64,000 nucleotides of DNA from Rhodococcus sp. 14-1411-2a (lineage in GTDB: Bacteria; Actinomycetota; Actinomycetes; Mycobacteriales; Mycobacteriaceae), in NCBI RefSeq assembly GCF_002259485.1, contig NZ_NPGA01000014.1, positions 1 to 64,000 of the forward strand, given 5' to 3'. Below the pieces are notes generated by a model that made no database searches, had not been told where the DNA came from, and saw only the letters and a program-made list of their open reading frames with translations. Shown piece by piece: positions 8,850 through 62,543 of the stretch. The translations under genes were made by a program, and so were the position numbers. Each line of letters opens with the position of its first letter. Positions within the stretch are counted from its first letter, which is position 1.

Positions 8850-12773
<3,924 letters not shown>

Positions 12774-12796
<23 letters not shown>

Positions 12797-50452: not shown

Positions 50453-50499
50453 CGCTCAAGAGGGTACCCGCACCGCAGCAGCGGCTAGTGTCAGTCCTC

Positions 50500-51018
50500 G
50501 TGTCCACCCCCGACCGCTCCGCAGAAGAAGGCTCCACGGGCGACGACTGGTCGCCCGAGAACGACGAGTTGCAGCATCACGTCCCGCTACCCGTCGAGTT
50601 GCCGCTGACCGAGAACATCGCCGACGCGGCCCTCGATCTCAAGACGCAGGTGGTGCGTTTCTTGGCGACCGGTGTGCTGTCGGCCATCGTCGACCAGGGC
50701 GTCAACCTGATCCTGCACTTCGTGTTCGGCGTCGGTGTGACCCTCGCCAAGGCCATCGGCTTCGTACTCGGAACGACGACGGCCTACCTGATCAATCGTC
50801 GATGGACGTTCAACGCGGCCCCGTCACGGGCTCGGTTCTTCGCCGTCGTCGCGCTGTACGGAGTCACCTTCGCCGTCCAGGTGGGCATCTACACCTGGCT
50901 CTACCAGGCTCTTCCCGACGGCTTCTGGTACGCCAACGTGGCCTTCGTCATCGCGCAGGGTACGGCGACGGTCATCAACTTCCTCGTCCAGCGATTCGTG
51001 ATCTTCAAAATCCGCTGA
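50500..51018 (+). CDS. GtrA-family membrane protein (Rv3789-like)
   Basis: A protein of about 172 residues with an acidic cytosolic N-terminus and four membrane segments in the GtrA pattern (VRFLATGVLSAIVDQGVNLIL; FVLGTTTAYLINRRWTF). GtrA proteins are proposed flippases for polyprenyl-phosphate sugars; the M. tuberculosis homologue next to dprE1, Rv3789, has been linked to decaprenylphosphoryl-arabinose handling. Here it is divergent from dprE1 rather than in the same operon. The start is uncertain: GTG 50500 is chosen, GTG 50488 is possible. Confidence 0.85.
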   Translation: MSTPDRSAEEGSTGDDWSPENDELQHHVPLPVELPLTENIADAALDLKTQVVRFLATGVLSAIVDQGVNLILHFVFGVGVTLAKAIGFVLGTTTAYLINRRWTFNAAPSRARFFAVVALYGVTFAVQVGIYTWLYQALPDGFWYANVAFVIAQGTATVINFLVQRFVIFKIR

Positions 51019-51446: not shown

Positions 51447-52027
51447 TCACGAGAAGATTGGCAGGTCTCCGCGTTCGAGGGCGTCGGCGAGGGTGGGGGC
51501 GGCTTTGTCCTTGTCGGAGAGTTCGTAGGTCAGGGGTGTGCCGTCGCGGGCGGTGGTGGGCCAGTCGATGCCCAGGGCGGGGTCGAGTGGGTTGATGTCG
51601 CGGTCCAAGGCCGGGGTGTATTCGAGGGTGCACAGGTACATGACGGTCGAGTTGTCTTCCAACGACAGGATGGCGTGGCCGAGTCCTTCGGAGAGGAAGA
51701 CTGCTTTGCGGTCGATGTCGTCGATCAGCACGCTGTCCCACTGCCCGAATGTCGGTGATCCGACGCGCAGGTCGACGATGACATCGAGGAAGGCTCCGCG
51801 GGCGCAGGTGACGTATTTCGCCTGCCCGGGTGGGTTGGTGGTGAAGTGGATCCCGCGTAGGACCCCGGCGGCGGAGACCGAGCAGTTCGCCTGCAGCAGC
51901 TCCAACGACCGCCCGGTGGTGGCCTCGAACGCCGATGCTTTGAACCATTCGAAGAACACTCCGCGGTCGTCGCCGAACTGGCGTGGGGTGTACTCGTAGG
52001 CACCGGCGATGCTCAGTTCACGAAAGG

Positions 52028-52031
<4 letters not shown>
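51447..52031 (-). CDS. rmlC: dTDP-4-dehydrorhamnose 3,5-epimerase RmlC
   Basis: A 194-residue cupin epimerase, the third step of dTDP-L-rhamnose synthesis. The catalytic His is in RGIHFTTNP and the Tyr in [10 protein letters not shown]; other landmarks are [13 protein letters not shown] and [21 protein letters not shown]. Length is normal for an unfused RmlC. The ATG overlaps the rmlA stop by 4 bp. Rhamnose is needed for the disaccharide linker joining peptidoglycan to galactan. Downstream DNA carries a partial copy of its 3' end. Confidence 0.96.
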
Positions 52032-52900
<869 letters not shown>

Positions 52901-53565: not shown

Positions 53566-53934
53566 TCACTCCCACGGGATTCGGTACGGCGAAGTTCCGG
53601 TCTCGGCGATCGGAGTCGGCCATTCGGCCGGCCACAGGATCTGCGGATCGGCCTTGAGCTCTTCGACTTCCGGTGGCACCGGAGTTGCGTCCACCTCGAC
53701 ACGTTCCCAACTGCATTCACCCGACGCGACGCGGGTCGCGTAGTGGATCAGGTCGGCCGATGCCCGGCGTGAGGACGCCAGGCGGGCCAGCAGTTCCGCT
53801 GTGACGTATCGGGTTCCCGCCGGAGCTTTCAGATCGGTGTTCAGGGCCCGCGTGCGCGCGGCCTCGAGCTCACCGCAGGATGTCATCAGACGGTCGTACG
53901 CGGCTCGGGCGTGTGGAGGCAGTGACTGGATCAT
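53566..53934 (-). CDS. Hypothetical protein, last gene of the type-VII-secretion-like set
   Basis: A 122-residue protein without recognised motifs. It is helical in the first 75 residues and ends in a Pro-rich tail (EVDATPVPPEVEELKADP). Its ATG overlaps the stop of the preceding decayed gene by 4 bp, so its translation would have been coupled to a gene that is now broken. It may be an accessory or chaperone-like partner of that protein; this is inferred from position only. Confidence 0.55.
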   Translation of the reverse strand: MIQSLPPHARAAYDRLMTSCGELEAARTRALNTDLKAPAGTRYVTAELLARLASSRRASADLIHYATRVASGECSWERVEVDATPVPPEVEELKADPQILWPAEWPTPIAETGTSPYRIPWE

Positions 53935-55134
53935 GCGTCCCGCCAGGGTTCGTCGCCGGTGCCAACGGAGAAGTCCTCGTCCGGAGTGTCGAGGACCGGT
54001 CGGATATCCGCGGTCTTTCCCGCTTCGACGGACTGCTTGCCGTAGTCGAGGAAGTCGTTCAATGGGCGTAACGTGTCGTCGATCTTCTTGCCCACCTGGC
54101 TCTCGGGATCGCCGAGCGCGTCGAGGAACGCGCCGAAGTCATCGACCACCTGCTCGATCTTCGCAATGAGTTCCTTGGTCAGATCCATTGCTGTCCAGCA
54201 GATTTCGATGATACTTTCGACCTGCCAGGCCGTGCCCACCATCGGTACCTTCTTGATCATGACCTTCAACGCACCGCGGGCGTTGTCGACGGCGACCTCC
54301 GATTCGAGAAGTTCGACGATTTTCCGAACCACTGCCAGCGCAGCGTCACGGAGTTGTTCGGATATCACTGCACAGACCGCGGAAATCGTGCGGCCTGCGG
54401 GCCCCTCCCATCGCATTGCGGCCAGTTGTCGGTCGGCGTAATCGGTGAATGCCTGTGCGGCAGCGCCGTTCCAGTAGGCGTCCACGCGCCCCACACCTGC
54501 CGCGAACGACTCCGACGCGGCTTCCATGGCGTCGCCTGCGATCTGATATGCGTGGCCGATTCTCCTGATTTCGTTTTAGTTGCCGGTGATCGGCATTGTC
54601 GCCTCGTTCAGGGGGCTCCACCCGCAGAGTTCGAAAATCGTTGTGTCGATCTCTCCGAGCCAGCCCGCGGCATCGTCGAGTAACTCTCGGACTTCGTCGA
54701 CGACGGGATTCGGCGCGAAATAGTCGATCCCGTGGGCCGTCCGTAATCGGCTGCCTCGTCGAATTCGTCCACGTGGCCGACGGCGGCACGATCCGAGCTG
54801 CCACGATCGATGCCCGGTAGTGGCGGCGCGCTTGTGTGAGCGTTCAGCAGGTCATAGTTTCGCTGATCCTGATCGGCATACAGCCATGCCGCTCTGTTGA
54901 GTTCTGCACCCATTTCCCCGCAGTTGGCGGACAGGTGAACCTGCCGAGTGCGTGTCATCTCCTGAAACCGTGCGAGGTACGGCTGAAGTCGTTTCAGAAT
55001 CTGCCCAACCACGTTCTCGCTCAGGCCCGCCTGATCGAGCAGATAACGATGACTGGCCAGAGTGTCGCCGCCGACGCGATCGAGAAGATGTCCGAGGCCG
55101 GCTATTTCCGAGGATCTGGCGATCAGCGGTTCGG

Positions 55135-55138
<4 letters not shown>
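53931..55138 (-). pseudogene. Decayed EspC/WXG100-like type-VII-secretion substrate gene
   Basis: Read in pieces, this minus-strand span gives one protein of about 402 residues. Residues 1-105 (frame from ATG 55138) are an EspC-like helical region (GGDTLASHRYLLDQAGL). A single-base loss in a C-run at about 54734-54736 shifts the frame; the next frame reads IDYFAPNPVVDEVRELLDDAAG and then GWSPLNEATMPITGN. A TAA at 54576-54578 stands where these proteins usually have Trp, after which the same frame continues NEIRRIGHAYQIAGDAMEAA, VDAYWNGAAAQAF (a WXG motif) and a 130-residue helical tail. The tail alone is open as a 198-residue frame from ATG 54527. Two independent lesions suggest an old pseudogene. 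Confidence 0.75.
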
Positions 55139-57004
<1,866 letters not shown>

Positions 57005-57012
57005 AGCCGGAA

Positions 57013-57849
57013 CTAACTACTGCGTGACATTCGATGGCGCAGTAGCAGGTACACCGCGCGACGCATGAACGACGTCATCAGAGCCTTGGCATTACCGATG
57101 CGAACGTCGTTGTCGGACAGCAGTGTCGGGTCGCTTGCTTGCAGGGAGCGATGGAAGTCCGCGGCCTGACGTGCCTGCTGTGTCGCCAGTTCCACGCTCC
57201 ACTGTCCCGAGTTGATTCGGAACGACGCCAGTGGTTGCGGAATTGCCACGATGTCGCCTCGTAGCGCAACCGCGATGAAGGTGGCCTGGTCGATCAGGTA
57301 GGGATGGCTGTTGTCCCACAACCCGATCTCGCGGAGTTCCGACAGCTTCATCATGACGCCGCCGGGTTCGCCGAAGATGTTGGCACCGGCCCGAACTGCG
57401 GTTCTGGCGGCGACTCGGCCCGATACCGTTCCGTGCAGTCCACCGAGCCCGCGGGCGGCGATGACCGTCTTGCCGTAGGCGTCGATCAGCGTCCGCTGTG
57501 CGGCGACCAGAACGGCAGACGGGTTGTCGTCGAACGCCCGCACCTGAGTGTCCAGCGCGGTGGGCGCGATGGTGTCGTCACCGCAGACGAGCTTGATCAG
57601 CTCGCCCGTGGCTTCCTCGGTGACGCGGTTCCAGTTGGCCTGCGCTCCGCCGCCGACCGGGGTGGTCAGGAGGCGGATCCGTGGGTCGTCGAACTTCTGC
57701 GCGACGGCGAGGGTTCCGTCGGTCGACGAATGATCGGCGATGACCAGTTCGAAGTCCGTGAACGTCTGGGCGAGAATCGAATCGATGGTCTCGGCCAGAT
57801 ACTCGGCGTTGTTGTACGCCGGGACGACTACGGAAACACGGGGCGTCAT
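57013..57849 (-). CDS. GT2-family glycosyltransferase
   Basis: A 278-residue cytosolic GT-A enzyme with SVVVPAYNNAEYL at the nucleotide-binding start, VIADHSSTDGT, and KLVCGDDTIAP as the metal-binding Asp pair near residue 90. No membrane segment is evident. The sugar donor and acceptor are unknown. It is the last gene of a five-gene minus-strand operon and overlaps the GtrA gene by 4 bp; it converges with rmlB. Confidence 0.88.
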   Translation of the reverse strand: MTPRVSVVVPAYNNAEYLAETIDSILAQTFTDFELVIADHSSTDGTLAVAQKFDDPRIRLLTTPVGGGAQANWNRVTEEATGELIKLVCGDDTIAPTALDTQVRAFDDNPSAVLVAAQRTLIDAYGKTVIAARGLGGLHGTVSGRVAARTAVRAGANIFGEPGGVMMKLSELREIGLWDNSHPYLIDQATFIAVALRGDIVAIPQPLASFRINSGQWSVELATQQARQAADFHRSLQASDPTLLSDNDVRIGNAKALMTSFMRRAVYLLLRHRMSRSS

Positions 57850-58313
57850 GATGTGGGGGCCTGGCTCTTTCTGCGGAACGAGAAGTCGCGGTAGCCGAAG
57901 AAGCTGACGACTGCCATCACGGCTGTGACGACCAATTGTGAAGGGATGGGCGGGAAGTGGAAGACGGACACGGCGATCGTCATCAGGGAGATGTTGGCGA
58001 CGAACGCGCCGAAGTTCACGACGAAGAACCGCAGCAGATCGCGTAGGAAGTGACCCCGCACGCGGAACACCAGGTAGCGGTACATCGCGAACGCGCACAG
58101 CACGTTGCAGAGATAGCCGAGCACGATCGCGGCGTGGTATCCGTACTGCTCGCCGATCAGCAACTGCCACAGGATGAACCACGCGGTACCCAATGCGGTG
58201 TTGACGCCGCCGACGAGCAGGAACGCGATCTTCTGATTCTTGACGATGCGCATCAGCGGCCCCGGCGCACCGTTCATGCCCGCCGGGGGAGCAGGAGTCT
58301 GTGGTTCGGTCAT
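57846..58313 (-). CDS. GtrA-family membrane protein (putative polyprenyl-phosphate-sugar flippase)
   Basis: A 155-residue protein with four membrane segments in the GtrA pattern: AFLLVGGVNTALGTAWFILW, GYLCNVLCAFAMYRYLVF, and VVSFFGYRDFSF at the end. GtrA proteins are thought to flip polyprenyl-phosphate-linked sugars. It overlaps the genes on both sides by 4 bp. With the polyprenol-type GT2 and the GT-C gene of the same operon it completes a GtrABC-like set. Confidence 0.9.
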   Translation of the reverse strand: MTEPQTPAPPAGMNGAPGPLMRIVKNQKIAFLLVGGVNTALGTAWFILWQLLIGEQYGYHAAIVLGYLCNVLCAFAMYRYLVFRVRGHFLRDLLRFFVVNFGAFVANISLMTIAVSVFHFPPIPSQLVVTAVMAVVSFFGYRDFSFRRKSQAPTS

Positions 58314-59251
58314 CGACCCACCGCCAGTGCTTGACGCGTCGCGAACAGGGTGGACGCAATACCTGCCGGCAATGTTCGGTGCGTTCGGCGATCGATCTGT
58401 GGCCAGACCGTCGACCGCAGCCGTAGATCGCGACCCTGGAACACCGCCAATGGGGACGCCGCCAACACCACGTTCGGTCGACGGCGAAACACCGTCCGGC
58501 AGGCTCCGAGAATCGAGCCGATGGTCACGGCCTCACCGGAGGCGAAGATCTTGATCGTCGGCGATATTCGTTCCGTGGCAGACATGGCAAGGGTGTCGGC
58601 GACCATCTCGGCCGCGTCGGACACGTAGAGGTAGTCGCGCAACGTGTCCATCGGGACGTAGATGGAGACGGGGGAGGCCATGAGGTATCCCCGGCACAGG
58701 TGCGAGATCAGGCCCTGCGGTTTCGCGAGGTTCTGCCCTGGCCCGTAGAGGTTCGCGAACCGGCCGATGGCCACGTTGATGCCGGTGCGTTCACCGAACT
58801 CGGTCGCGATGGCCTCGGACTGCAGCTTGGCGAAACCGTAGTCGCCCAACGGAACCGGGTTCGTTCCCTCGTGATGTGGGGCACCCGTCGCGCCGGCGTA
58901 GACGCCTCCGGCGGACGAGGCGAGGAACACGGTTCCGGTGCCCGCGCGGTCGGCGGCGACAGCCTCGATGTGCGCCAGGACGGTGCGGATCAGGCCGTTC
59001 TCTTCGGCGAATTGTGCTGCACTGGTTCCGTTCACGCCCGCGCCCGCGGCCCAGATCACGTTCCAGGTACCGTCGGCGAAGGAATCGAAGAACTCCGAAC
59101 AGCGCTGCAGCAGAGCCTGTTCGGCGGACACCGAGTCCGACCACGGGATGGTGCTGGTGTGCACCCGATGTCCACGACGACCGGCCTCCCGGGTCACCGC
59201 AGCGCCGAGCAGCCCGCCGCTGCCGACGATCCACGTGTGCGTCGCGGTCAC
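58310..59251 (-). CDS. NAD-dependent epimerase/dehydratase family protein
   Basis: A 313-residue extended short-chain dehydrogenase-like protein. The cofactor motif is TWIVGSGGLLGAAVTREA, followed by FLASSAGGVYAG and LGDYGFAKLQSEAIA, which supply the Ser and Tyr-x3-Lys. It probably converts a nucleotide sugar, or a lipid-linked sugar, for the operon's product; the substrate is unknown. The start is a GTG at 59251 that overlaps the stop of the upstream GT2 gene by 4 bp; residues before it in the same frame do not match the fold. Confidence 0.85.
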   Translation of the reverse strand: MTATHTWIVGSGGLLGAAVTREAGRRGHRVHTSTIPWSDSVSAEQALLQRCSEFFDSFADGTWNVIWAAGAGVNGTSAAQFAEENGLIRTVLAHIEAVAADRAGTGTVFLASSAGGVYAGATGAPHHEGTNPVPLGDYGFAKLQSEAIATEFGERTGINVAIGRFANLYGPGQNLAKPQGLISHLCRGYLMASPVSIYVPMDTLRDYLYVSDAAEMVADTLAMSATERISPTIKIFASGEAVTIGSILGACRTVFRRRPNVVLAASPLAVFQGRDLRLRSTVWPQIDRRTHRTLPAGIASTLFATRQALAVGR

Positions 59252-60276
59252 GCCGGCGGTGCAGGTTCGGTCGATGGCGCAGTGCGCCCGAGCGGGCCGT
59301 TTCCCGGGTCGGTGACGATCAGGTACGGCGGCTTGCCCATGGCGGTCTTGACGTTGACGCCCACGTACTCGGCCACCACACCGAGAGAGAACAGGGTTGC
59401 TCCGAAGCCGAACAACAGGATCACCATCGTCGATGCCCAACCTCGTACCTCGGCACCCGAATCGAAGACGAAGTACGACACCAGTACGTACGCCACCAGA
59501 ATGAGGCCGAGAATCGCGAAGGCGATGCCGATGAAGCTGACCAGTCGCAGGCCCTTGGTGCCGCTCGAGAGCACCATCCGCCAGAAGTGCGAGAGCAAGG
59601 TGCGCAGTCGGTAGCCCGATCGACGGTCCACCTCTTCGCGCAACGCCACCGGGCTGGTCGTGACGTCGCCTGCGATCCAACCGAGTGCGATGTCCAGGTA
59701 TGCCTCGGAACCGGCGTAGGCGGCGACGGAGCGACCGACTTCACCGAGCACCAGGCGGTAGCTCTGGTAATCGATGGTGTTGTCCCCGGCCAGCGCCTTG
59801 GCGATCAGCCACTTCGAACCCTTGGAGGCTGCGTTGCGCCACATCCCGTGCGGTGCGACGTTGGTGGGCTTGGCGTAGACGACGGTGGACTGCTGGTCGA
59901 GGGCCGCATCCAGCATGCCGCCGATCGCCGCCGGATCGTGCTGTCCGTCCTCGTCCATCGTGACGATCCACTCGCCGCCGCTGGACGCCATGCCGGCGAG
60001 GGTGGCGGGATGCTGACCGAAATTTCGGCTCAGCCACACCCCGCGAACGAACGTGTGCGCGGCCGTGAGCTGGCGAATCACCGCGGCAGAGTTGTCGGGA
60101 CCGTGATCGAAGACGAGCAGAACTTCCTCGACGATCATCGGCCGCCCGAGGGGAGTATGCGTCACCTGCGTCAGCGGAAGGATCTCGTCCATCAACGCGC
60201 TGAGCGTCCGTTCGCCCTGGTAGACCGGTACCACGATGGAGATGCGGTGCGGATCAGCAGCAGAGTCGTCGGACAT
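59248..60276 (-). CDS. Membrane-anchored GT2, polyprenyl-phosphate sugar synthase type (GtrB/DPM1-like)
   Basis: A 342-residue enzyme with an N-terminal GT-A domain (SIVVPVYQGERTL, LLVFDHGPDNSA, MDEDGQHDPAAI with its Asp-x-Asp) and two C-terminal membrane segments (LVSFIGIAFAILGLILVAYVL and MVILLFGFGATLFSLG). This is the GtrB/ArnC arrangement: it puts a sugar from a nucleotide donor onto polyprenyl phosphate. ATG 60276 is chosen over GTG 60279. It lies 15 bp after the GT-C gene. Confidence 0.9.
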   Translation of the reverse strand: MSDDSAADPHRISIVVPVYQGERTLSALMDEILPLTQVTHTPLGRPMIVEEVLLVFDHGPDNSAAVIRQLTAAHTFVRGVWLSRNFGQHPATLAGMASSGGEWIVTMDEDGQHDPAAIGGMLDAALDQQSTVVYAKPTNVAPHGMWRNAASKGSKWLIAKALAGDNTIDYQSYRLVLGEVGRSVAAYAGSEAYLDIALGWIAGDVTTSPVALREEVDRRSGYRLRTLLSHFWRMVLSSGTKGLRLVSFIGIAFAILGLILVAYVLVSYFVFDSGAEVRGWASTMVILLFGFGATLFSLGVVAEYVGVNVKTAMGKPPYLIVTDPGNGPLGRTAPSTEPAPPA

Positions 60277-60290
60277 CACGAGGTCTGAGC

Positions 60291-62543
60291 CTATCTGCTC
60301 GACGTCCCAGCGCCGAACTCCCGAGAACTCGAATTTCTGCGTCGTCGCACATCGAGCACCACCAGGCCGACCAGCAACAGCGTCCCGCCGGCCATCGCGG
60401 CCAGTCCGAGTCGTTCGCCGGGCGGTCGGAAGGTGATCTGCAGGTCCGCGTTCTCGGTGCCGGGCGGCAGGTCGACGTAGAGGAAGATGTCGGCCAGCCC
60501 CTTCGTCTGCAGCTCCTCACCGTTCAGCGTCGCGGTGTAGCCGGGCCAGGCCAGACGCGAGAACACGACGCTGCCACCGTTGGGTGCGCTGACGTCGACG
60601 TGCTCCGAGTCCGCATCGGACGATCGGGGTTCGGCCGTGGCGTTCACGGTCGCGACGACGCGTCCCGACGACGCGGGAAGCAACCCGTCGATGCGTTCGA
60701 GGACGTAGATCTGGCGAGCGGAGTCGGGAGTGGGAGCGGTCACCCACATCCAGCCTGCGGGTGCGGGCCGGGAGTTCGCGAGCGGATATTGATTCTTCTG
60801 CAGCACGATTCGATCGAGTTGCATCAGGTCGGCGTACGTCTTGCCGGTGTACGGCTCGATCTCGAACACGCGCCTGAAGGCGTCCGTGCAGGTCGATCCC
60901 TCGTGCTCGAAGCACAGCAGGTTGGCGAAGTCGAGATAGCCGACGGGGGTGTACGCGTTGACGTAGTCCAGGCCCATGATCTTGGCGGAGTTGCCGTACA
61001 CCTGGGAGTGCCAGGGCAGCCGGGGGTCGTCGGGTCCGTCGGCTGCGGTTTCGGTGAGCGCACGGCTACCGAGTTGCAGAGTCGCGCCCTGCCACTGTGG
61101 GAACTCGGCCTTGGCCTCGGATTGGGACGTGGGCAGCCACCACTTGGCGAAGGGCGGATCGTATGTGGCCACCTGGTACATCGCGACCGGCGCGATCGTC
61201 ACGAGGAGCAGCGCCGCAGTCGCCCGGGTCGAGAAGCGGTGGGCCAGCAGCAGAGCGAGCGCGCCGACGAGCAGGATCACCAGCGCAGCGAGGACGTGGC
61301 GACCGAAGAATTCCGGGCCCGACGAGCCGGCGCGAAGCAGCAGTACCAGCGTCAGCAGGCCGGCCGCGAGCAGCCGCGGCCGCAGCTTGTCGAGGGTTCC
61401 GTACCGGCTGATCAGGGTGACCACGAGAATCAGTGCGACGAGGGCGACGAACGGCAGAATGCGGGCGGGCCAGCGGATCGGTCCGATGTCGCTGGGACCT
61501 GCGGTGAAGATCAAGGCGAACGCCAGCATGATCAGTGGTGCCGCCAGCTCGCGCAGAGCCGCGGGTACCCGGCGCCACGCGATGAACGCCAGCGCGGGGA
61601 CCACGAACCAGGCGATGTAGGTGACCGGCGATTCGGTGGTCTCGCCCGCCCAGGATTCGATGCTCGTCACCGCGGTCGGGATGCTCGCGGTGAGCGATTC
61701 CGACCACGGTGCCGTCAGGAAGTTGTCGTTGAACGTGCCCTCGTCACCACTGCGCCAGGTGACCGCGGACGTGAGCACTCCGGGCAGGAAGGTGACGGCC
61801 CCGCACGCGGCGGCAGCGATGCCGACTGCGCAGACCTTCAGTGCCGGACGCCACAGCCGCTGGAACAGTCGTTCGCCGATGGCGACGGATCCGATCATCA
61901 CTCCGGCCATCACCGCGGCGTGGACGTATCCCACGCTGATGGCGAGGTAGAGGAAGGCGAACGGCACGATCGGACCGCTGCGACCGCGGGCGTAGGACAC
62001 CGAGCTCGCCCAGGCGTTCATGATCCACGCCGTGCCCATCAGCGCGGTCACCCACGAGGTGTTCTCGAAGAACAGCGTGAACCCGACGAACGGTGCGCTC
62101 GCGCCCGCTACCGCAGCCCAGTTGGCTCGCGCTCCGTAGGCCAGGGCGACTCGAAACACGCCCCAGGCCAACAGAATCGAGAAGCCCAGTTTGACGACCG
62201 TTGCCAGCAGTACCAGGTTGTCGATCGACGGCGAGATGTAGTTGATCGCCATCTGCACGGGATTCCACAGGCCGCCCTGGCCCTCGACCGGGTAGTTGCC
62301 GGCCATCCACTGATCGAGCACCAGCGAGGGGAATTGCCCGTCGCGCATGATGCGTCCGAGTTGGAGCCAGTTGGGTACGGCACCCGATTCGGTGTCGTCG
62401 ATGTAGAAGAAACGGGGATCGACGCTGAGCACCAGGAGATAGCCGAGGACCACCACTGCAGCGACCGCTGCTCCCCACGCGAGGCGCTCTCTCCTGCTGT
62501 CGGGCAGGGCGGCGCGCGCGATGTGGGTATCCGTGGGGGTCAA
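60291..62543 (-). CDS. YfhO-like GT-C membrane protein (putative glycosyltransferase)
   Basis: A 750-residue polytopic protein with about thirteen membrane segments and a C-terminal soluble domain of about 250 residues, ending in one more membrane segment and an Arg/Ser-rich tail. The first outer loop carries FFYIDDTESGAVPNW with an Asp pair, the GT-C hallmark, followed by DQWMAGNYPVEGQGG. YfhO-type proteins transfer sugars from polyprenyl phosphate to envelope polymers. It is the first gene of the operon, so the downstream GT2 and GtrA proteins may make and flip its donor. The acceptor is unknown. Confidence 0.8.
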   Translation of the reverse strand: MTPTDTHIARAALPDSRRERLAWGAAVAAVVVLGYLLVLSVDPRFFYIDDTESGAVPNWLQLGRIMRDGQFPSLVLDQWMAGNYPVEGQGGLWNPVQMAINYISPSIDNLVLLATVVKLGFSILLAWGVFRVALAYGARANWAAVAGASAPFVGFTLFFENTSWVTALMGTAWIMNAWASSVSYARGRSGPIVPFAFLYLAISVGYVHAAVMAGVMIGSVAIGERLFQRLWRPALKVCAVGIAAAACGAVTFLPGVLTSAVTWRSGDEGTFNDNFLTAPWSESLTASIPTAVTSIESWAGETTESPVTYIAWFVVPALAFIAWRRVPAALRELAAPLIMLAFALIFTAGPSDIGPIRWPARILPFVALVALILVVTLISRYGTLDKLRPRLLAAGLLTLVLLLRAGSSGPEFFGRHVLAALVILLVGALALLLAHRFSTRATAALLLVTIAPVAMYQVATYDPPFAKWWLPTSQSEAKAEFPQWQGATLQLGSRALTETAADGPDDPRLPWHSQVYGNSAKIMGLDYVNAYTPVGYLDFANLLCFEHEGSTCTDAFRRVFEIEPYTGKTYADLMQLDRIVLQKNQYPLANSRPAPAGWMWVTAPTPDSARQIYVLERIDGLLPASSGRVVATVNATAEPRSSDADSEHVDVSAPNGGSVVFSRLAWPGYTATLNGEELQTKGLADIFLYVDLPPGTENADLQITFRPPGERLGLAAMAGGTLLLVGLVVLDVRRRRNSSSREFGAGTSSR

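Follow-up and report, generated by a model that had tools for sequence, protein, structure and literature searches.

A candidate transmembrane glycosylation cassette in a variable slot beside the arabinogalactan genes of Rhodococcus sp. 14-1411-2a

The 64,000-nucleotide stretch of DNA analysed in this work (hereafter, the window; contig NZ_NPGA01000014.1 of Rhodococcus sp. 14-1411-2a) carries, at positions 57013–62543 of the minus strand, a cassette of five genes coding for a YfhO-like glycosyltransferase of the GT-C type, a GtrB/ArnC-type glycosyltransferase of family GT2, an extended short-chain dehydrogenase/reductase (SDR), a GtrA-family protein and a second GT2 (GT2b). It is proposed, with moderate confidence, that this cassette loads an unusual, likely 6-deoxy, sugar on a membrane lipid, flips it and attaches it outside the membrane, likely to arabinogalactan. 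In the chromosomal slot in which the cassette lies, most of the close relatives without it carry other predicted sugar-adding sets, and this slot is of greater interest than the operon itself. Confidence in this explanation derives mainly from the pairing of SDR and GtrB, found in 26 out of 26 genomes, and from the tree of GtrB proteins.

A preliminary description of this DNA had reported five minus-strand genes, most of them joined by 4-bp overlaps, embedded in the arabinogalactan region next to rmlB, and both observations hold. Each of the five open reading frames is open end to end: the YfhO-like gene (60291–62543; 750 amino acids, TTG start), gtrB (59248–60279; 343 amino acids), the SDR gene (58310–59251; 313 amino acids, GTG start), gtrA (57846–58313; a small membrane protein of 155 amino acids) and the GT2b gene (57013–57849; 278 amino acids). 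Overlaps of 4 bp are found at three junctions (GtrB/SDR, SDR/GtrA and GtrA/GT2b), and a gap of 11 bp lies between the YfhO-like gene and gtrB. The TTG start falls in the same alignment column as the start of a relative of the YfhO-like protein (P0006). At one border of the slot, rmlB (56000–57004, plus strand), which codes for dTDP-glucose (dTDP, deoxythymidine diphosphate) 4,6-dehydratase and is the sole match in the genome above the family cut-off, converges on the GT2b gene at a distance of 8 bp. At the other border, beyond the window on the same contig, there is a second GlfT2-like gene (L153 6050–7942; PF19320, 92 bits; PF17994, 73 bits), distinct from the GlfT2 gene at 10889–12796 of the window (285 and 217 bits, respectively), and it is followed by glfT1 and by wzt and wzm, the galactan exporter. 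An amidohydrolase gene (PF07969; 62718–64000 onward) separates the cassette from the GlfT2-like gene; it is also found in some close relatives and is absent from others.

Protein families, predicted folds and co-conservation support the Gtr-type logic previously assigned to these genes, in which a sugar is loaded on a lipid carrier, flipped and transferred outside, with a sugar-modifying enzyme added. Both GT2s match PF00535, GtrB at 54.9 bits. GtrB aligns to ArnC structures (9bhc; E-value, 3.6e-21) over residues 7–321, and its score of 93.6 bits against NF007986 (cut-off, 529) indicates that it is not ArnC itself. Two C-terminal hydrophobic stretches, judged by eye, would anchor it, and GtrB thus appears to be a membrane-linked GT2 of the GT-A fold akin to polyprenyl-phosphate-sugar synthases; inspected in the same way, GT2b is without an obvious long hydrophobic segment. 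The match of GtrA to PF04138 (60.4 bits; cut-off, 26.1) places it in the flippase family of YfhO-type multi-component transmembrane glycosylation systems. The SDR matches the Epimerase family (PF01370, 80.2 bits) and has a YxxxK active site (Tyr138/Lys142). For the YfhO-like protein of the window, no Pfam family was found at E ≤ 1e-3, and its name is based on the precomputed PF09586 (YfhO) matches present in some of its relatives and on the predicted GT-C fold. The model contains a beta-rich domain (residues ~598–705) ahead of the last helix, and an invariant Asp50 (FYIDDTESG) lies in the expected first extracytoplasmic loop, so that the protein is predicted to combine a GT-C fold with an acidic motif in that loop.

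The co-conservation on which the preliminary description had made its proposal depend was borne out. A scan of the named GTDB contigs gave 340 relatives of the YfhO-like protein, and the best 80 loci were fetched and tallied by tblastn. SDR was found in 27 of the 80 loci, accompanied by GtrB in all 27, and in 25 of the 80 the SDR, GtrB, GtrA, GT2b, rmlB and GlfT2-like genes all occur around the YfhO-like gene. The two other SDR-bearing loci are L013, in which only the GlfT2-like gene is missing, and L021, whose stretch contains no GtrA, GT2b or rmlB. A WecE-type aminotransferase and GtrB occur without the SDR in 43 loci (40 of these also have GtrA); L043 (Rhodococcus ruber NBRC 15591) has neither the SDR nor the window-type GtrB, a different GT2 being present instead; and nine further loci have neither the SDR nor WecE, two of the nine with GtrA. 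In R. oryzae and R. maanshanensis, an additional PMT_2-type gene (519 amino acids; L016 12341–13900, and L018) separates the YfhO-like gene from gtrB.

A survey of the family, covering 251 genomes, detected the SDR in 26 (E ≤ 1e-30) and GtrB in 59 (E ≤ 1e-60). A GtrB copy of at least 71% identity is present in 26 genomes, the remaining copies reaching 45–50%; these are the same 26 genomes that have the SDR, and the two genes are neighbours by coordinates in every one. GT2b (E ≤ 1e-50) was found in the 26 SDR genomes and, in addition, in G112 and G196; several of the GtrB and GT2b matches contain one internal stop. Some genomes are shared by the survey and the named loci, so that the two do not count as independent samples: judged by identical sampled 200-base pieces, G196 is L043 (74/74), G116 is L009 (59/59), and G049 nearly equals L024 (91/95). 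Across 396 genomes of the phylum, the SDR (E ≤ 1e-40) occurs in three besides that of the window (36–47% identity), and in all three distant bacteria a GtrB of 50–57% identity adjoins it. Based on the 25 complete named loci and on the neighbouring SDR and GtrB genes of the 26 surveyed genomes, the five-gene grouping is more than chance. It does not belong to the core genes shared by mycolate bacteria, as such an SDR is absent at E ≤ 1e-30 from 225 of the 251 genomes.

Of the 22 surveyed genomes that belong to the same genus, 12 have the SDR and 10 lack it; all ten non-carriers were examined at the rmlB locus, and the slot itself was viewed in two of the 12 carriers (G000 and G116). In all ten non-carriers, the space between rmlB and the GlfT2-like gene is filled by one of three other gene sets (types B, C and D), of which types B and C include a YfhO-like protein; glfT1 lies further on in six of them, and the stretch ended sooner in the other four. 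Type B (three genomes: G235, G073 and G103) consists of genes for a YfhO-like protein, GtrA and a PgfS-like GT2. Type C (six genomes: G151, G210, G201, G171, G005 and G089) comprises a YfhO-like protein, a DegT aminotransferase, a Gfo/Idh oxidoreductase, an LpxA-like acyltransferase, a GT2 and an LPG-synthase-TM protein (L144 9129–16197; also L145, L147, L152, L154 and L155), and the YfhO-like protein of G171 is closer to that of type B (43%). Of the four type B and C proteins tested, three exceed the PF09586 cut-off of 28.5 bits (33.2, 45.5 and 33.7 bits), and that of L143 gave no match. In L152, type C products resemble UDP-N-acetylglucosamine (UDP, uridine diphosphate) 3-dehydrogenase (135 bits against a cut-off of 450) and LpxA (158 bits against 226) without reaching either threshold, and an acylated 2,3-diamino sugar is only suggested as the product. 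Type D (G249; L146 8938–12108) has two proteins of hydrophobic appearance (longest frames, 569 and 491 amino acids), neither of which gave a match in Pfam. Outside these ten genomes, a different arrangement was observed in G011 (L127), where the stretch examined shows neither rmlB nor the GlfT2-like gene. In 13 hand-chosen non-carrier genomes from nine other genera of the family, a profile of the YfhO-like protein (A1) retrieved nothing at E ≤ 1e-3.

These data tentatively point, with rather less assurance than is given to the pathway as a whole, to a serotype-like arabinogalactan slot, in which interchangeable gene sets with their own donor enzymes, most of them with a YfhO-type transferase, would give rise to species-specific side chains: a 6-deoxyhexose for the allele of the window, a diamino sugar for another, and 4-amino-4,6-dideoxygalactose for the sister system of Nocardiaceae described below.

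Evidence on the donor comes from the partners of GtrB. In a maximum-likelihood tree of 83 GtrB-type proteins (80 distinct), from which aligned stretches with a stop or less than 75% coverage were left out, 77 proteins fall on the side of the window: 35 encoded beside the SDR and 42 beside WecE. This filter removed L028, which belongs to the 43 WecE loci, from the tree. The WecE-paired GtrBs occupy one side of a single branch with a support of 100/100. A separate group of six is formed by the three type B proteins, L043, its copy G196, and G112, and the branches leading to the three distant bacteria are long, their placement being unsure. Two WecE-type proteins tested passed the cut-off of NF008687 (dTDP-4-amino-4,6-dideoxygalactose transaminase; 489 and 493 bits; cut-off, 375) and remained below that of TIGR02379 (410 and 414 bits; cut-off, 434.85). 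Close GtrB relatives are tied either to the SDR or to WecE, and the partner of GtrB is therefore the SDR or an enzyme whose family uses the RmlB product. L043 lacks both GtrB and SDR and has a PgfS-like GT2 at their position; it retains GtrA, GT2b and the YfhO-like gene in an arrangement that matches Rhodococcus sp. HM1 (L026), where GtrB and SDR are present. This joint replacement was seen in one genome, not two (G196 being L043), and another R. ruber record (P0163) has the SDR. Thus, judging by gene content, GtrB and SDR appear to travel together as a donor module.

The WecE-containing loci represent a sister system, which consists of a WecE-type aminotransferase, GtrB, one or two YfhO-like genes and mostly GtrA (L027 7536–12250, L038 7707–12700 and 41 further loci). 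It was found in Nocardia, Tomitella, Antrihabitans and some Rhodococcus, and as a second set in R. erythropolis (L045), and it is predicted to handle 4-amino-4,6-dideoxygalactose.

The SDR is predicted to be a 4-ketoreductase or a 4-epimerase producing the nucleotide sugar used by GtrB, and the WecE-paired sister clade suggests that this donor is a dTDP sugar. The simplest reading is that the SDR uses dTDP-4-keto-6-deoxyglucose, since WecE would take the same substrate. The SDR would reduce the 4-keto group of this RmlB product to give dTDP-D-fucose or dTDP-6-deoxyglucose, and WecE would place an amino group on the same carbon. RmlB scores above the cut-off in each of the three distant SDR bacteria, which is a weak test, as 10 of 14 control genomes also have it. 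It speaks against this assignment that the nearest SDR folds and sequences are UDP-sugar 4-epimerases; the fold search discriminates little, extended SDRs scoring almost equally. Alternatively, the SDR could be a UDP-sugar 4-epimerase supplying a UDP-derived hexose (galactose, galacturonic acid or N-acetylgalactosamine), as in the galactosamine pathway of Rv3634c and PpgS. The SDR matches MoeE5 at 64.5 bits (79.4 bits with the SDR profile). Its match to Rv3634c (7ys8; E-value, 5.6e-6; residues 97–216) is weak at 29.3 bits (58 bits with the profile) and gives no sign of orthology, with no tree or reciprocal test behind it; as the sister GtrB clade is moreover tied to a dTDP-sugar aminotransferase, a UDP-sugar donor is considered improbable.

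A third assignment would leave the remaining pathway unchanged and make the SDR a dTDP-L-rhamnose 4-epimerase, or a dTDP-4-keto-rhamnose reductase, with 6-deoxy-L-talose or L-rhamnose as the lipid-linked sugar. The predicted fold is compatible with a 4-epimerase, and rmlA (glucose-1-phosphate thymidylyltransferase; 52028–52900, minus strand), rmlB and rmlC (dTDP-4-dehydrorhamnose 3,5-epimerase; 51447–52031, minus strand) are nearby; RmlC is the only PF00908 match of the genome (148.4 bits, slightly below the cut-off of 155.75). In eight named loci (L015–L018, L022 and L024–L026) the three genes even lie inside the gene set, and with a canonical RmlD encoded elsewhere in the genome (C1:896194–897033; 331.8 bits), dTDP-rhamnose should be available. 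Against this stands the sister clade, as WecE is known to convert the RmlB product, with no need of RmlC, into a 4-amino sugar of D configuration. At the end of strand beta2, moreover, MoeE5 carries Asp, as an NAD+-retaining epimerase should, whereas the residue in 18 aligned SDRs is Ser (13), Glu (3), Gln (1) or Arg (1); these residues lean towards an NADP(H) reductase and do not decide the matter. The L-rhamnose-based assignment is therefore regarded as quite unlikely, and dTDP-4-keto-6-deoxyglucose is retained as the preferred substrate. Two simpler arguments about the rml genes were rejected. The SDR is not a missing RmlD, given its 25.2 bits against TIGR01214 (cut-off, 224.05) and the true RmlD named above, and rml adjacency in itself says nothing of the donor sugar, because the other gene sets of the slot have the same neighbours.

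According to the proposed pathway, every step of which is read from protein families and predicted folds, the SDR would make the nucleotide sugar, and GtrB, by its kinship with ArnC, would load the sugar on polyprenyl phosphate. GtrA would flip the lipid-linked sugar; for the GtrA protein Rv3789, however, a role as flippase is under dispute (PMC7389260). The YfhO-like protein, judging by its fold and conserved Asp, is predicted to carry out the last transfer on the outer side of the membrane. GT2b would probably act on the acceptor, either preparing or extending it, which is the least supported step; in the single genome that has GtrB and SDR replaced, GT2b is kept along with GtrA and YfhO.

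The acceptor is likely arabinogalactan, most likely its galactan, given the neighbouring galactan exporter, glfT1, GlfT2-like gene, rmlABC, dprE1/E2 and aftA and, by analogy, the galactosamine and glucose side chains described in related bacteria. A real transmembrane glycosylation system acting on another acceptor (a lipoglycan, an exported exopolysaccharide or proteins) seems somewhat unlikely. YfhO systems are known to act on teichoic acids and secondary polymers (PMC8035078), and an acceptor cannot be named from genome position alone. However, rmlB and the GlfT2-like gene flank the slot in 10 of 10 non-carriers, both of these genes are found in 26 of the 28 rml-linked named loci (27 with SDR, and L043; the exceptions are L013 and L021), and the system of M. 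tuberculosis acts on arabinogalactan, as that of C. glutamicum is inferred to do (PMC9671496, PMC3485146).

Two further features of the region were recorded. A second GtrA-family gene (50488–51018, plus strand) adjoins dprE1, in what we take to be an Rv3789-like position; six PF04138 matches above the cut-off were counted in the whole genome. At 53931–55138, two neighbouring minus-strand frames (176 and 198 amino acids) correspond to one frame of 402 amino acids in L143 (14230–15438), so that this gene, which belongs to no known family, looks split in Rhodococcus sp. 14-1411-2a.

Arabinogalactan connects peptidoglycan with the mycolic-acid membrane, and descriptions generally present it as conserved and sparsely decorated. 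Serotype-converting gtr gene sets, which modify O antigens, are exchanged among close relatives. If whole donor-and-transferase sets are likewise exchanged within one genus, arabinogalactan would vary like O antigen, with consequences for phage infection, diagnostics and taxonomy. Once adsorbed, phage Cog depends on the inferred arabinogalactan-modifying set of C. glutamicum (PMC9671496), and the glucose side chains present in Nocardia arabinogalactan lead to false-positive fungal tests (PMC12794489). The slot alleles would also serve as ordered natural variants for assigning enzymes to side-chain sugars.

No trace of the cassette, or of gene-set exchange at an arabinogalactan locus, was found in the accessible literature, nor any paper linking YfhO with Rhodococcus, subscription papers being mostly outside the search. 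The earlier statement that no product of such a gene set had been described in mycolate-containing bacteria is nevertheless too strong. In mycobacteria, PpgS, Rv3632, the epimerase Rv3634c and the GT-C protein Rv3779 are described as adding galactosamine to arabinogalactan, and C. glutamicum has ppgS, cgp_0391, cgp_0393, cgp_0658 and an extra GT2, cgp_0396, the added sugar being called unclear by the authors (PMC9671496, PMC3485146). As described, the latter set resembles the cassette in having a polyprenyl-phosphate-sugar GT2, a GtrA-like helper, an epimerase, a GT-C protein and an extra GT2, and systems of the PpgS/Rv3779 type share with the present proposal an arabinogalactan acceptor in a mycolate bacterium. 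In contrast to the PpgS/Rv3779 system, the cassette is a single operon in a variable slot, and its SDR shows only distant similarity to Rv3634c. Among the Nocardiaceae, Nocardia nova also has a hexose, beta-glucose, as a side chain on its galactan, and the main text of that study assigns no enzyme to it (PMC12794489).

Outside the mycolate bacteria, the CsbB-GtcA-YfhO systems of Firmicutes share the membrane-linked GT2 that loads polyprenyl phosphate, the GtrA-family flippase and the YfhO-type GT-C protein acting outside, and they transfer glucose, galactose or N-acetylglucosamine onto teichoic acids or other secondary polymers (PMC8035078, PMC7389260); unlike these, the cassette has a dedicated SDR and a second GT2, and is located in a mycolate host at an arabinogalactan locus. 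The three-component pentofuranose systems of Citrobacter O1/O2 likewise use a lipid-linked donor, a flippase, an outside GT-C protein and an SDR that decides the added sugar, but they begin with a UbiA-type phosphoribose synthase and have a MATE-type flippase, where the cassette has a GT2 and GtrA (PMC11127046); since its first enzyme is a GT2, the cassette was not assigned to this class (GT136). The O-antigen gtr cassettes of Shigella and Salmonella follow the same GtrA-GtrB-Gtr* logic (PMC11127046), whereas the present cassette sits at a constant chromosomal position among the arabinogalactan genes, where the donor enzymes vary along with the GT-C protein. Thus, this kind of system is already known, and its combination with an SDR is closely paralleled in Citrobacter (PMC8035078, PMC7389260, PMC11127046). 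With such analogues described, the operon alone does not stand as the undescribed system for which it had seemed the best candidate; the unusual part is the slot filled by other gene sets within the genus.

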